DNA from: Acidobacteriota bacterium
Lineage (GTDB): Bacteria > Acidobacteriota > Vicinamibacteria > Fen-336
Direction: 5' to 3'
DNA: 33,993 nucleotides
Assembly: GCA_022340545.1 (NCBI GenBank)
Contig: JAJDNV010000141.1
Coordinates: 1-33,993 of the forward strand
The notes beneath the pieces are model-generated. The model did not search any database, had not been told where the DNA came from, and was given only the letters and a program-made list of their open reading frames with translations. Shown in pieces: positions 4,633 to 24,756 of the stretch (the stretch's first letter is position 1; each line of letters starts with the position of its first letter). A program made the position numbers and the translations under genes.

Positions 4633-5838
<1,206 letters not shown>

Positions 5839-5855
5839 GTGAACAGGAGCGACAC

Positions 5856-8390
5856 ATGAGGATGCTCTGGTTCGTTGCCCTCGCCGCGTGCGCGGCCTCG
5901 TGGCCGGAGACGGCGACCGCTGCGCCCGTCAAGGTGGAAGGCGGTCTCGTCCGGGGAGTCGCCGAGGGCGACCTGACCGTGTACAAGGGCGTTCCCTTCG
6001 CCGCGCCGCCCGTCGGCGATCTCCGGTGGCGGGCGCCGCAGCCGGCCGCGGAGTGGCCGGGCGTGCTCGAGGCCGACCAGTTCGCGCCCGGATGCGTGCC
6101 GTCGAGAGGCGATCCGCCTCCGAGTGGCGCGAGCGAGGACTGCCTGTACCTGAACGTGTGGACTCCGGCGACGTCTCCCGGGGACGGCCTGCCGGTCCTG
6201 GTCTGGATCTACGGCGGCGGCTTCAACGGGGGCGCCACCTCGGTCCCGGTGCACGACGGGGCGAAGCTGGCCCGACGCGGGGTGGTTCTCGTGACCATCG
6301 CCTACCGCGTGGGCGTCCTGGGGTTCCACGCGCAGCCGGAGCTGAGCGCGGAGTCGCCCCACCACGTCTCCGGCAACTACGGCCTGCTGGACATGATCGC
6401 GGCCCTGGAGTGGATCCAGCGCAACATCGACGCGTTCGGGGGCGACGGTGAGCGGGTCACCATCTTCGGTGAGTCCGCCGGCGGCATCGCGGTGAGCATG
6501 CTGTGCGCGTCTCCTCTCGCGAAGGGCCTGTTCCACGGCGCGATCTCGCAGAGCGGCGGCTCGTTCGGGCCGAGCAGCCGGTCTCCGGTGCCCGGCGAGA
6601 ACATGCGCCTGCTGGCGGACGCCGAAGCGTCCGGCGACGGGCTGGCCGAGGCCGCCGGCGTGCGATCGCTGAAGGAGCTGCGGGCCCTGCCGGCCGAGAA
6701 GGTGGTCGAGGCCCGCGGTCGCCTGCCCGGCATGGCCTGGCCGATCGTCGACGGCTGGGTGATTCCCGGCGACCAGCACGAGCTCTACGAGGCCGGCCGG
6801 TTCAACGACACGCCGATCCTGGTGGGCTACAACTCGGACGAGGGCCTCAGCTTCACCCGGGTCCGCACACCCGAGGATTACATCGCCGGCGTGCGCGAGC
6901 GCTACGGGCCGTTCGCCGATCGCCTGCTCGAGGCCTATCCCACGGCCGCCGACGCCATCCCCAAGACCGCTCGCGACCTGGCGCGCGATTCGGCCTTCGG
7001 GTGGCACACCTGGGTGTGGGCGCGCCTCCAGTCCGCGCACGGCCAGGGGAAGGCCTTCTACTACTACTTCGACCAGCACCCCGAGCGCCCGGTGGGCTCA
7101 CCTGAGGCCGACCACGGCGCGCCGCACGGCGTGGACGTTCCTTACGTGTTCGAGAACCTGGAGGGCCGGGACCAACCCGTCACGCCCGAGGATCGGCGGA
7201 TCTCCGACGCGATGGCGGCATACTGGACGAACTTCGCGAAGCGTGGAGACCCCAACGGCGACGGGCTGCCGGCGTGGCCGGCCTTCAGCGATGATGATTC
7301 CGTGGTGATGTACTTCGCCGGCACGCCGCACACCGGCCCCGTGCCCAGCGAGGGCTCGCTGCGGGTCCTGGACCGCTACTTCGCGTGGAGGCGCAGCCCG
7401 GAAGGATTGGCCGACACCGGCATCCGGGAGAAGAAGCCGGTCTTTGGCGGCGCGTGCCGTGTGTGCCCCTGGGGGGCAATGGCCGAGGTCGTCCAGGCCG
7501 CCATGAGGCCGTACGGGTACGACGTGCAGATCTGCTACAACTGCAACCGTGCCGACGCCCCGCGGATCGTCAGCGAGGCTCGCGTGCCGCCGCCCTACGA
7601 GCCTGATCCCGTGGTTCCCGAGATCCTCGCGCCGCGGAATGCCCCCGGACTCGGACCCGTCGACTTCGGCGCGGTCGCGATCCAGTTCCTGCGCGACGCG
7701 TACCGCGGGAGGGGTTTCTACGCGGGCGAGAAGCCGAGGACGAACCTGCGCCTGATCGCCAACATCCAGCACCCCACCTACGTCCTGGTCGCGGCCCGAG
7801 CGGAGACGGGCATCACCGACCTGTCGCAGATCCGGCAGAAACGCTGGCCGGTCCGGATCCTGGAGGCGGGAGTCGGCGCCGACTCCTCGCGCATCCTGGC
7901 CTACTACGGTCTCTCGAAGGACGTCGTCGAGGCCGCTGGCGGCCGCGTGGGCCGCTCGCAGGAGGACCGGGAGGACTTCGACGTCGTCATCGGAGGCGGC
8001 GGCGACATGACGACGGCTCCGGAGTGGAGCATCTGGACCGAGATCAGCCAGAGGTACGACCTCAACTTCATCGAGCTGCCGGACGACCTGCTGGTCGCGC
8101 TAGCCCGGGAAGGCGAGCAGGAGCGAGGCACGATCCCGGCGGGCCTCTACCCGGGCGTCGATCGCCCGATCCCGACCGTGGTGCGGACGGGAACCGTGGT
8201 CTACGGCCGGGACGACATGCCAGACGACTTCGCCTACGACGTGGCGAGGGCGCTGGACGAGCAGCAGCACCTGCTACAGTGGAGGCACCTGAGCTTCTCG
8301 TACAACGTCCACACCGTGTGGAAGGGGTACGAGGTGCCGCTTCATCCAGGAGCGGCCCGCTACTACAGGGAGCAGGGCTACATGGAGTAG
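5856..8390 (+). CDS. Fusion protein: type-B carboxylesterase (N-terminal) plus TAXI-family TRAP solute-binding-like domain (C-terminal, about 7435-8387)
   Basis: N-terminal half: GVPFAAPPVGDLRWRAPQP, SEDCLYLNVWTP, VWIYGGGF, VTIFGESAGGIAVSML, GAPHGVDVPYVF. C-terminal half: NLRLIANIQHPTYVLVAARAETGITDLSQI, GTIPAGLYPGVDRPIPTVVRTGTVVYGRDDMPDDFAYDVARAL, PLHPGAARYYREQGY (TAXI hallmarks). No stop in between. ATG at 5856 with RBS aggagc. Confidence 0.87.
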   Translation: MRMLWFVALAACAASWPETATAAPVKVEGGLVRGVAEGDLTVYKGVPFAAPPVGDLRWRAPQPAAEWPGVLEADQFAPGCVPSRGDPPPSGASEDCLYLNVWTPATSPGDGLPVLVWIYGGGFNGGATSVPVHDGAKLARRGVVLVTIAYRVGVLGFHAQPELSAESPHHVSGNYGLLDMIAALEWIQRNIDAFGGDGERVTIFGESAGGIAVSMLCASPLAKGLFHGAISQSGGSFGPSSRSPVPGENMRLLADAEASGDGLAEAAGVRSLKELRALPAEKVVEARGRLPGMAWPIVDGWVIPGDQHELYEAGRFNDTPILVGYNSDEGLSFTRVRTPEDYIAGVRERYGPFADRLLEAYPTAADAIPKTARDLARDSAFGWHTWVWARLQSAHGQGKAFYYYFDQHPERPVGSPEADHGAPHGVDVPYVFENLEGRDQPVTPEDRRISDAMAAYWTNFAKRGDPNGDGLPAWPAFSDDDSVVMYFAGTPHTGPVPSEGSLRVLDRYFAWRRSPEGLADTGIREKKPVFGGACRVCPWGAMAEVVQAAMRPYGYDVQICYNCNRADAPRIVSEARVPPPYEPDPVVPEILAPRNAPGLGPVDFGAVAIQFLRDAYRGRGFYAGEKPRTNLRLIANIQHPTYVLVAARAETGITDLSQIRQKRWPVRILEAGVGADSSRILAYYGLSKDVVEAAGGRVGRSQEDREDFDVVIGGGGDMTTAPEWSIWTEISQRYDLNFIELPDDLLVALAREGEQERGTIPAGLYPGVDRPIPTVVRTGTVVYGRDDMPDDFAYDVARALDEQQHLLQWRHLSFSYNVHTVWKGYEVPLHPGAARYYREQGYME

Positions 8391-8422
8391 GCGCGGGGGC
8401 GGATGCCTGCTTCACGTCCGAC
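8381..8422. repeat. Left copy of imperfect direct repeat flanking the kinase gene
   Basis: CATGGAGTAGGCGCGGGGGCGGATGCCTGCTTCACGTCCGAC matches 10192-10233 at 35 of 42 positions by manual alignment. Confidence 0.7.
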
Positions 8423-8512: not shown

Positions 8513-10183
8513 GTGACCACCACGAGCAGCGGGCCGGGCGACGAGCAACGGGCCTTCCTGCAGCAGCGGGTAGCGCTGTTCGGGAAGGTGATGACCATCG
8601 TCAACGCCCTCGGCTGCGGGGCCTTCGTGGCGCTGTTTCCTTGGGAGTATCTCCTCAAGCCGTGGTTCGCCCTCTATCTCGTCAACGCCGGGTTGATCGT
8701 CGCGATGTGGCTGAGCTGCCGGACCGGGGTGCGATCGGTGCGCTTCTGTCGAACCATCGAGGCCACGGCCTTGATCGGATCGGCGCTGTCGAGCTCGGTG
8801 ATGAGCCGGTTCATGATTCCTTTCGGGCTGCCTCAGGCCCTCGGCGGCGTCGTGAGCCCCGCCGACCCCGCCTACGATCGCGTCGTCGGTCTGCACCAGG
8901 CCCACGCTGGGATGGGCATGGTCGTCGGTCTCGGCATCCTGGTCCTGGTCCGGGCCGCGATCGTGCCGTCGAAGACGCTGCGCACCGTGGTCCTGACGCT
9001 GCTGACCGGCGTGGTCGGGGGCACGATCATGACCGTGGGCGCCGTTCCCCTCGAGGGCCCGGAGCCGATCCTCCGCCACACCCCTCTCGACACCGCGGCC
9101 ATGACCGCCGCCAACTTCCTGGCCTGGTGGGCGCTGATCACCGTCGTCTGCGTGGCCATCACCCGGATCATCTACGGCCTGAGGCGCGACCTGGACCGGG
9201 CCCGCCAGCTCGGCCAGTACACCCTCGAGGAGAAGCTGGGCTCAGGCGGCATGGGCACGGTCTATCGCGCCCGCCACGCCATGATGCGTCGTCCCACCGC
9301 GGTCAAGCTGCTCCCACCCGGCAAGGCGGGGGAGGCCAACCTGGCCCGGTTCGAGCGCGAGGTCCAGCTGACCGCCCAGCTCACCCACCCCAACACCGTC
9401 ACCATCTTCGACTACGGGCGCACCCCCGACGGCATCTTCTACTACGCCATGGAGCTCCTCGACGGAGCTACCGTTGCCGACGTGGTGCGCTTCGACGGGG
9501 CCCAGCCCCCGGGGCGCGTGCTCAAGGTGCTGGCGGAGGTGGCGAGCGCCCTCGAGGAGGCCCACGGCATCGACTTCATCCACCGCGACATCAAGCCCGC
9601 CAACGTCATCCTGTGCTGGCAGGGCGGGAAGCCCGACGTCGCCAAGCTGGTCGACTTCGGCCTGGTCAAGGACCTGGCCGGCACCGACGGGGTCGAGCTC
9701 ACCAGCACCGCGACCCTCGCCGGCACCCCGCTCTATCTGTCACCGGAGGCGTTGACCGCTCCCGACAAGGTCGACGCTCGCGCCGACCTCTACTCTCTGG
9801 GCGCGGTGGGCTACTTCATGCTGACCGGCAGCCACGTCTTCGCCGGCCGGACCCTGGCCGAGGTTTGTGGCCACCATCTCCACACGACGCCCGAGCCCCC
9901 GTCGCACCGGCTCGGCCACCCCGTCCCCTCCGACCTCGAGGCGCTCATTCTCTCGTGCCTGGCCAAGGAGGCCTCCGAGCGGCCGCAGTCGGCGAGCGCG
10001 CTCCTGGGTCAGATCCTCTCCTGCTCCAGCTACGGCGAATGGAGCGACGACGCGGCCCGCGCCTGGTGGCAGGAGAAGGCCGAGGGGCTGCGGGACCTTC
10101 GCCGGGAAGAGATGGAGACCCCGCACTCGCTGAGCCTCGCCGTCGACCTGGACCGCTGCGACCACACCCTCACGAAGCCGTAG
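8513..10183 (+). CDS. Membrane-anchored serine/threonine protein kinase (N-terminal multi-TM region, C-terminal kinase domain)
   Basis: Kinase motifs YTLEEKLGSGGMGTVYRARH, TAVKLLPPG, FIHRDIKPANVIL, KLVDFGLVKD, GTPLYLSPEAL. About six hydrophobic segments precede the kinase. The likely start is GTG 8513 (RBS gggag), not ATG 8453. Confidence 0.9.
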   Translation: MTTTSSGPGDEQRAFLQQRVALFGKVMTIVNALGCGAFVALFPWEYLLKPWFALYLVNAGLIVAMWLSCRTGVRSVRFCRTIEATALIGSALSSSVMSRFMIPFGLPQALGGVVSPADPAYDRVVGLHQAHAGMGMVVGLGILVLVRAAIVPSKTLRTVVLTLLTGVVGGTIMTVGAVPLEGPEPILRHTPLDTAAMTAANFLAWWALITVVCVAITRIIYGLRRDLDRARQLGQYTLEEKLGSGGMGTVYRARHAMMRRPTAVKLLPPGKAGEANLARFEREVQLTAQLTHPNTVTIFDYGRTPDGIFYYAMELLDGATVADVVRFDGAQPPGRVLKVLAEVASALEEAHGIDFIHRDIKPANVILCWQGGKPDVAKLVDFGLVKDLAGTDGVELTSTATLAGTPLYLSPEALTAPDKVDARADLYSLGAVGYFMLTGSHVFAGRTLAEVCGHHLHTTPEPPSHRLGHPVPSDLEALILSCLAKEASERPQSASALLGQILSCSSYGEWSDDAARAWWQEKAEGLRDLRREEMETPHSLSLAVDLDRCDHTLTKP

Positions 10184-10191
10184 GGGCGGTC

Positions 10192-10233
10192 CATGGAGTC
10201 AGCGCGGGGGCGGATGGCTACTTCGCGTCGAAC
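10192..10233. repeat. Right copy of imperfect direct repeat flanking the kinase gene
   Basis: CATGGAGTCAGCGCGGGGGCGGATGGCTACTTCGCGTCGAAC. It overlaps the 3' end of the minus-strand GH51 (EFDAK-stop). Confidence 0.7.
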
Positions 10234-23181: not shown

Positions 23182-24756
23182 ATGACCCGATCAAGGACGA
23201 TCCTCGAGTCGATCCTGGGACTGGCCGCGGTGGCTGGGGTGGCGGTCATCCCGGTCGTGCACTCGCAGGAGCCGGCGCGGTCGTCGCAGGTTGATCCAGT
23301 GGGAGAGGCTGGCGAGCACCCGACCGCCGCCGGTGGCGACGAGCGGGGCACAGTGGCGCCGCGGGGTCGGCCCAACCGCAGCGGTGGCGGTGCGCTGTAC
23401 GCGCAGTTCTGCGCCGGCTGTCACGGCCCCCACCTCGAGGGCGGATCGGCCACGAGCCTCATCGACGACGAATGGCTGTTCGGCGGCACCGAGGCGGACA
23501 TCCTCGAGACCATCACGGACGGACGGCCCGGCACACCCATGATGGCGTTCGGCGAGCTGTTGGACGAGCACCAGATCTGGCAGCTTCTCGTCTACATTCG
23601 TCAGCAGAAGGACCGCCCTGGCGACCGGCCCGCGACCATCGTCGATCCCGACGGCCACGAGGTCAAGTCGGAGAAGCAGGTCTTCCGCGTCGAGGTGGTC
23701 GCCCGTGACCTGAACACGCCGTGGGGTATTGCCTTCCTCCCGGACGGCAGGATGCTGGTCACCGAAAGGCCCGGGGCCATCCGGGTCGTGGAGGATGGCG
23801 TGCTGCAGCCCGATCCGGTGGCCGGGACGCCCACACCCTGGGCGGTCCAGGATGGAGGCTTCCTCGACATCGAGGTGCATCCCGACTACGCCCGAAACGG
23901 CTGGATCTACCTCTCGTACGCCCAGCCCGGGCCGGGAAACTGGTCCACGACGGAGCGAGGCGAGGGCAACACCTCCATGACCCGTGTCGTTCGCGGGAGG
24001 ATCCGGGACCACCGCTGGGTGGACGAGGAGGGCATCTTCGAGGGAGGTCCGGAGCTCTTCTCGTCCTCCAGCATTCACTACGGCTCCCGATTCATCTTCG
24101 ACCAGAAGGGAAAGCTCCTGTTCTCCATCGGCGACCGGGGCCGGATGGAGACCGCTCAGGACCTGACCAGCCCCCTCGGCAAGGTGCATCGGGTGAACGA
24201 TGACGGCACGATCCCCAACGACAACCCCTTCGTCGGCCGACCCGACGCCGTCCCGACGATCTGGAGCTACGGGCACCGCAACCCCCAGGGCTTCTCCATC
24301 GACCGGGTCACCGGGTTGATGTGGGAGGCTGAGCACGGGCCCATCGGTGGTGACGAGCTCAACATCATCGAGCCGGGGCTCAACTATGGGTGGGGCGTCA
24401 TCTCCCACGGGATCCAGCCGGGAATATCGCGCCGGACGGCAGAGGGGATGGAGAGCCCGATCGTGCACTGGACCCCGGCCATCGCCCCGAGCGCCATCCA
24501 CTTCTACGGCGGCACACGCTACCCGCGATGGAAGAACGACCTCTTCGTCACGGGGCTGGTCGGCACCGCCCTCCGGCGCCTGGAGGTCAGCGGGAGGCGC
24601 GTCACCCACCAGGAGGTCCTCTTCAACAGCTTCGGCCGGGTGCGCGACGTGGTCACGGGGCCCGACGGGCTGCTCTACGTGGCGCTGCAGCTGCCGGGGA
24701 GACGGCTGTCCTCGTCCACTCCCGGCGTGGTCGTCCGCCTGGTGCCGTTGGAATAG
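23182..24756 (+). CDS. Cytochrome c plus PQQ-dependent sugar (aldose) dehydrogenase fusion, secreted
   Basis: N-terminal YAQFCAGCHGPHLEGG heme-c motif (CAGCH) with GTPMMAFGELLDEHQIWQLLVYIR. C-terminal NTPWGIAFLPDGRMLVTERPGAIRVV, YGHRNPQGFSIDRVTGLMWEAEHGPIGGDELNIIEPGLNYGW (GSDH/YliI-type). Confidence 0.92.
   Translation: MTRSRTILESILGLAAVAGVAVIPVVHSQEPARSSQVDPVGEAGEHPTAAGGDERGTVAPRGRPNRSGGGALYAQFCAGCHGPHLEGGSATSLIDDEWLFGGTEADILETITDGRPGTPMMAFGELLDEHQIWQLLVYIRQQKDRPGDRPATIVDPDGHEVKSEKQVFRVEVVARDLNTPWGIAFLPDGRMLVTERPGAIRVVEDGVLQPDPVAGTPTPWAVQDGGFLDIEVHPDYARNGWIYLSYAQPGPGNWSTTERGEGNTSMTRVVRGRIRDHRWVDEEGIFEGGPELFSSSSIHYGSRFIFDQKGKLLFSIGDRGRMETAQDLTSPLGKVHRVNDDGTIPNDNPFVGRPDAVPTIWSYGHRNPQGFSIDRVTGLMWEAEHGPIGGDELNIIEPGLNYGWGVISHGIQPGISRRTAEGMESPIVHWTPAIAPSAIHFYGGTRYPRWKNDLFVTGLVGTALRRLEVSGRRVTHQEVLFNSFGRVRDVVTGPDGLLYVALQLPGRRLSSSTPGVVVRLVPLE

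Follow-up and report, generated by a model that had tools for sequence, protein, structure and literature searches.

A single reading frame in the window (the whole stretch of 33,993 nucleotides analysed here, from a soil acidobacterium) encodes a carboxylesterase that runs directly into a domain of the TAXI family, known from the ligand receptors of TRAP transporters. We favour the reading, at a probability of roughly one half, that the product is a secreted plant-ester esterase tethered to a transporter-independent, four-cysteine TAXI-fold binding or accessory module. On this reading, the secreted serine carboxylesterase would cleave an acetyl, feruloyl or related ester of hemicellulose, and the TAXI domain, residing in the same compartment, would bind what the esterase acts on, the acid that it releases or a metal that is needed. 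The module would concentrate, orient or regulate the esterase, with no handover of a ligand to a permease. The substrate of the esterase, the ligand of the TAXI domain and the coupling of the two halves are what we infer from the findings below, the coordinates of which are collected in Table 1.

Table 1 Coordinates of the fused gene, its parts and the adjoining esterase gene in the window
Feature	Position	Strand	Remarks
Fused gene: signal peptide, type-B carboxylesterase and four-cysteine TAXI-family domain	5856..8390	+	844 aa; Pfam and NCBIfam profiles
Likely Sec signal peptide	5856..5921	+	By eye; cleavage between ATA and AP
Carboxylesterase domain	5922..7403	+	PF00135; Ser207 nucleophile in GESAGG, Glu329, His424
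Junction, between ...WRRSPEG and LADTGIREKKP...	7404..7418	+	Esterase C-terminus abuts mature TAXI N-terminus, without linker
TAXI-family (NMT1_3) two-lobed domain	7410..8387	+	326 aa; profiles, Foldseek
Invariant cysteines C16-x2-C19PWG and C42-x2-C45 (domain numbering)	7455..7544	+	Codons at 7455, 7464, 7533 and 7542
CE1-like esterase (PF00756)	4648..5838	+	17 bp 5' of the fused gene; family recurs near some unfused four-cysteine TAXI genes

Two domains in one reading frame

The translated frame is free of internal stops, in agreement with an earlier note on this DNA, and its one product is matched over cut-off by both the COesterase and the NMT1_3 profiles. The N-terminal half is a type-B carboxylesterase predicted to hydrolyse esters, as that note had proposed: PF00135 (Pfam) aligns to residues 25–486 with 365.6 bits and an E-value of 6.6e-109, covering profile positions 5–495 of 515, the residues S207, E329 and H424 are invariant in the esterase alignment, and GESAGG is found in the alignment of orthologs. 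The TAXI homology claimed for the C-terminal half held up equally well. PF16868 matched residues 601–841 (105.8 bits against a cut-off of 27, E-value 4.3e-30; profile positions 52–289 only), and TRAP_TAXI (NCBIfam TIGR02122) scored 96.2 bits against a curated cut-off of 84.35 (profile positions 82–320 only). Structure prediction, which the note had suggested as a check, gave an AlphaFold2 model of the domain (pLDDT 74, pTM 0.71) with the TAXI fold, whose best PDB matches in Foldseek were TAXI receptors (E-values of 1e-15 to 1e-11, TM-scores of 0.56–0.69); the N-terminal part of the model is of low confidence, with a pLDDT of about 50–70. Plasmid-borne TAXI matches were all below 60% identity and none spanned 80% of the domain, the first ~76 residues being covered by none of the 8 best; no relatives were found on viral contigs.

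At this G+C content, a long open frame is by itself weak proof of a fusion. Standard TAXI genes lying in 'open frames' of 550–1066 aa resemble ordinary genes with internal starts, and the four of these that were examined as possible additional fusions were rejected, all having internal starts and signal-like leaders. In the window gene, the TAXI part is not an independent exported gene, since no signal peptide separates it from the esterase. GC3 is 0.85–0.97 over the entire frame without a dip at the junction, and both alternative reading frames are broken nearby; nothing thus points to a frameshift or a hidden stop at 7380–7440. An AGGAG-like ribosome site can be read upstream of the ATG at 5856. 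We infer that the fusion protein is exported, and it may be lipid-anchored via LAAC at residues 9–12, which resembles a very short lipobox. The fusion is known from one metagenome assembly (MAG) only.

Unfused orthologs and the position of the junction

A scan of genome contigs returned 13 close orthologs of the TAXI half (43–83% identity) and two weaker matches, from MAGs of Acidobacteriota, Verrucomicrobiota, Fibrobacterota, Gemmatimonadota and Pseudomonadota. In 13/13 close orthologs, a gene of its own encodes the TAXI protein, which carries its own hydrophobic leader right before QTGIxEKKPVFGGAC or an equivalent, and among the 18 TAXI orthologs in total all 17 outside the window are separate genes (fused, 0/17). 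One four-cysteine ortholog (L007:2950-3930) has an internal stop and could be a pseudogene or carry a sequencing error. The TAXI half is sparsely distributed within the phylum: matches to it occurred in 4 of 396 sampled genomes, including the source genome and one partial match, in a survey that used threshold matches and scored the five best candidates per genome.

An ortholog of the window esterase (~68% identity) is a separate gene directly 3' of the TAXI gene in two loci (L006 and L008). Unfused esterase orthologs end in WRRTPEGEAWAK followed by the stop, and unfused TAXI orthologs begin, after the signal, with QTGIxEKKP; set against these, the fusion consists of the esterase minus its last residues and stop and the TAXI protein minus its signal peptide. 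The junction thus sits at the natural ends of both orthologs, with only the second signal peptide and the last esterase residues dropped, and a random assembly join is unlikely to have hit the domain ends in frame.

Traces of the locus are present in a same-genus genome (G001). One of its contigs (L019, assigned by matching hits) matches window positions 4634–5853 at 87%, then continues with 128 bp of internal TAXI-domain sequence (window 7746–7873, 92%), the last bases and stop of the TAXI gene, and the window sequence from 10192 onward. The 128 bp (L019:5004-5131) form a decayed TAXI remnant at the syntenic place, which implies that the common ancestor had a TAXI sequence there and that it decayed in the relative. 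Since G001 keeps only TAXI remnants at this place, the fused gene is dispensable within the genus. A second pair of CE1-like and carboxylesterase genes in G001 (L022, 69% identity) runs off its contig.

A protein kinase gene of the window (8513–10183) lies between imperfect 39-bp direct repeats (8381–8419 and 10192–10230; by eye, 33/39 identical). L019 has a single copy of the repeat and no kinase at the syntenic place, which suggests that the kinase gene is an insertion or that it underwent repeat-mediated loss in the relative; its GC3 of 0.93 is similar to that of its neighbours and gives no sign of foreign origin. Elsewhere in the window, a frame on the + strand (29173–32583, 1136 aa) joins a molybdopterin oxidoreductase to a class-V aminotransferase (NifS-like cysteine desulfurase). 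These parts were only separate among 60 relatives, and a GTG near 31371 could start the aminotransferase part on its own. A glucose/sorbosone dehydrogenase domain is fused to a cytochrome c domain at 23182–24756 (+).

Four invariant cysteines and loss of alignable glutamate-site residues

The window's TAXI domain has no cysteines other than C16, C19, C42 and C45. They lie in the ~76-residue N-terminal part left uncovered by the best plasmid-borne matches, and the earlier note had not remarked on them. The spacing C-x2-C-x22-C-x2-C is exact in 18/18 orthologs, even at 43% identity, and PWG follows the second cysteine; these four are the sole cysteines of the domain in nearly all of them. Ordinary TAXI proteins of related genomes have a GGxYYPxGG loop at the position of the motif, without such cysteines. 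A haem c site was considered and rejected, as histidine follows neither CxxC.

The roles of Y45, S75, Q93 and E125 in the glutamate pocket of VcGluP are taken from PMC11574862, in whose alignment Y45 is present in 78% and Q93 in 54% of TAXIs. In the four-cysteine domains, Q93 aligns to Ala/Thr and E125 to Pro. The N-terminal part is aligned to standard TAXIs by MAFFT only, hhalign and HMMER leaving it unaligned; because these comparisons stop short, the cysteines are placed over the Y45 and S75 loops provisionally, with the first CxxC spanning the Y45 position and the second lying right before the S75 loop in the MAFFT alignment. Judged by its sequence, the four-cysteine domain is a distinct TAXI subfamily that has lost the alignable glutamate-binding residues.

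Transporter genes in the source genome and in other carriers

The window contains no TRAP membrane subunit, as the earlier note had remarked. The note's expectation of a usual TRAP ligand receptor fared less well: the genome-wide search that it had proposed for DctM-fused TRAP permeases returned none of TAXI type (TIGR02123) over cut-off in the source genome (G000, 93.65% complete), the same genome gave no match to the GltS symporter (PF03616), and key residues of the glutamate site are replaced. A permease may have been missed at this completeness. DctM-type genes do occur on two contigs; by eye, that on C299 accompanies a DctP-like receptor and that on C263 adjoins a glucuronate-isomerase-like gene, and, to go by these surroundings, the DctM relatives seem to work in a DctP-type system and in a uronate gene context. 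A permease match on C41 resembles, again by eye, a gluconate-type permease. The genome's other TAXI protein (L001, G000:C72:12113-12946) has apparent hydrophobic segments at both ends and may be anchored in the membrane; the short stretch read around it showed no TRAP permease.

Among the 14 other genomes that carry a four-cysteine TAXI gene, a TRAP_fused match is wholly absent in 8 and a TAXI-TRAP permease over cut-off in 11; the 3 that have one always carry it on a contig other than that of the TAXI gene. GltS is present in 5/14. A TAXI TRAP receptor is usually a stand-alone exported protein of about 300–350 aa. The free four-cysteine TAXI proteins have apparent signal peptides and stand alone, and the window version is fused. 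The four-cysteine TAXI domain is probably not a TRAP receptor.

Gene neighbourhoods

Separate four-cysteine TAXI genes recurrently neighbour esterase genes. A COesterase gene lies near them in 5 of 17 loci and near none of 20 standard TAXI genes in related genomes, and a COesterase or CE1-like gene in 6 of 17 as against 0 of 20 (Fisher p = 0.014 and 0.005, respectively, uncorrected for relatedness and host taxa). As taxa differ between the two sets, loci are not independent and stretches are of unequal length, we regard this enrichment as suggestive only; COesterase was absent from the stretches examined, some of them short, in 12 of the 17 loci. The TAXI gene precedes the esterase in L006 and L008 and follows it in L013 and L015, and the two are divergent in L087. 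This recurrent adjacency of separate genes, in either order, supports a functional link between the halves of the fusion.

GH10, GH43, GH95 and CE1-like esterase genes also stand beside some of the separate four-cysteine TAXI genes, a set of neighbours that resembles the glycosidase and esterase genes of the window. The latter comprise GH3, GH9, two genes with arabinofuranosidase C-terminal domains and a weak arabinofuranosidase-like gene, together with a second COesterase, a tannase/feruloyl esterase, a GDSL esterase and two CE1-like esterases, in line with the hemicellulose context that had been assigned to the region. The four-cysteine subfamily appears to have departed from TRAP transport, because its free members, apparently exported, mostly come from genomes without a TAXI permease over cut-off and show links to plant-wall-ester and xylan genes.

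Alternative explanations

As an ordinary, enzyme-tethered TAXI receptor, the domain would hand the released acid on to a TRAP permease encoded at another place in the genome. The TAXI profiles above cut-off and the DctM-type genes on C263 and C299 agree with this, but no TAXI-type fused permease exceeds the cut-off, the DctM genes lie in other contexts, 8 of the 14 other carriers lack any TRAP_fused match, and Q93 and E125 are replaced by Ala/Thr and Pro; already weakened by these results, the explanation strikes us as very improbable. That the fusion arose recently by accident, or only in assembly as a chimera, with functionally uncoupled halves, seems improbable to a lesser degree. The fusion has been seen in a single MAG and was met in none of the relatives or orthologs examined, and the same contig bears a second unusual fusion (29173–32583) not found in 60 relatives. 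Against this, the join is in frame exactly at the domain ends, the internal signal peptide is gone, GC3 is steady, and the same-genus genome has TAXI sequence at the syntenic place, after a CE1-like gene.

A stronger competitor, though still an unlikely one, is that the former ligand cleft houses a redox site or a metal site (Zn, Cu or the like) built from the four cysteines, which would make the domain a cofactor-dependent partner of the esterase and not a binder of small acids. The exact spacing in 18/18 orthologs with PWG, the near absence of other cysteines and the MAFFT placement in the Y45 and S75 loops point this way, as does Thi5, an enzyme with the same general fold, which appeared among the Foldseek matches at much weaker scores. 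Two disulfides in an exported protein would, however, give the same conservation, and domain 1 of VcGluP does contain a disulfide (PMC11574862); moreover, the site falls in the low-confidence N-terminal part of the model, which MAFFT alone aligns. The earlier note's alternative also has a place here, in that the TAXI domain may be a targeting or sensing module. Compared with these, we prefer the esterase tethered to a transporter-independent binding or accessory module.

Relation to known systems and implications

The window domain shares its HMM family, a modelled two-lobed fold and the conserved C-terminal PLHPGAxRYYxExG with the TAXI TRAP receptors (VcGluP, 8S4J; TtGluBP, 1US5). It differs from them in being fused to an enzyme in a genome where no TAXI-type permease was found, in having the four-cysteine motif in place of the Y45 and S75 loops, in the loss of Q93 and E125, and in an insertion of ~25 residues after the second CxxC. 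Elongated TAXI proteins of the BP0403 type and TAXI-GltS fusions are likewise multidomain and without a TRAP membrane component; BP0403 binds glutamate, and a pairing with GltS has been proposed (PMC12344293). Here, by contrast, the partner is an N-terminal hydrolase, and GltS was not found in the genome. With type-B carboxylesterases (PF00135) the window protein shares the full domain, the Ser-Glu-His residues and GESAGG, to which it adds the C-terminal TAXI domain. MltF-type lytic transglycosylases also fuse an exported solute-receptor-like domain to a polymer-cutting enzyme, with another receptor family, another enzyme and the reverse domain order. No account of an esterase-TAXI fusion or link turned up in a limited search of open-access full texts.

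Only tentatively, and with odds that we consider poor, could the four-cysteine TAXIs as a whole be taken for a class of exported proteins that have a receptor fold but no transporter, their pocket turned into a metal or thiol site, and that act as accessories of plant-polymer esterases in a partnership made visible by the fusion. Some bacteria encode solute receptors without a transporter, and for one such subfamily the fusion offers a concrete partner, an esterase. The conserved four-cysteine motif of this orphan-receptor subfamily is directly testable. If the coupling is true, transport receptors would have been reused as accessory domains in the extracellular degradation of plant esters.
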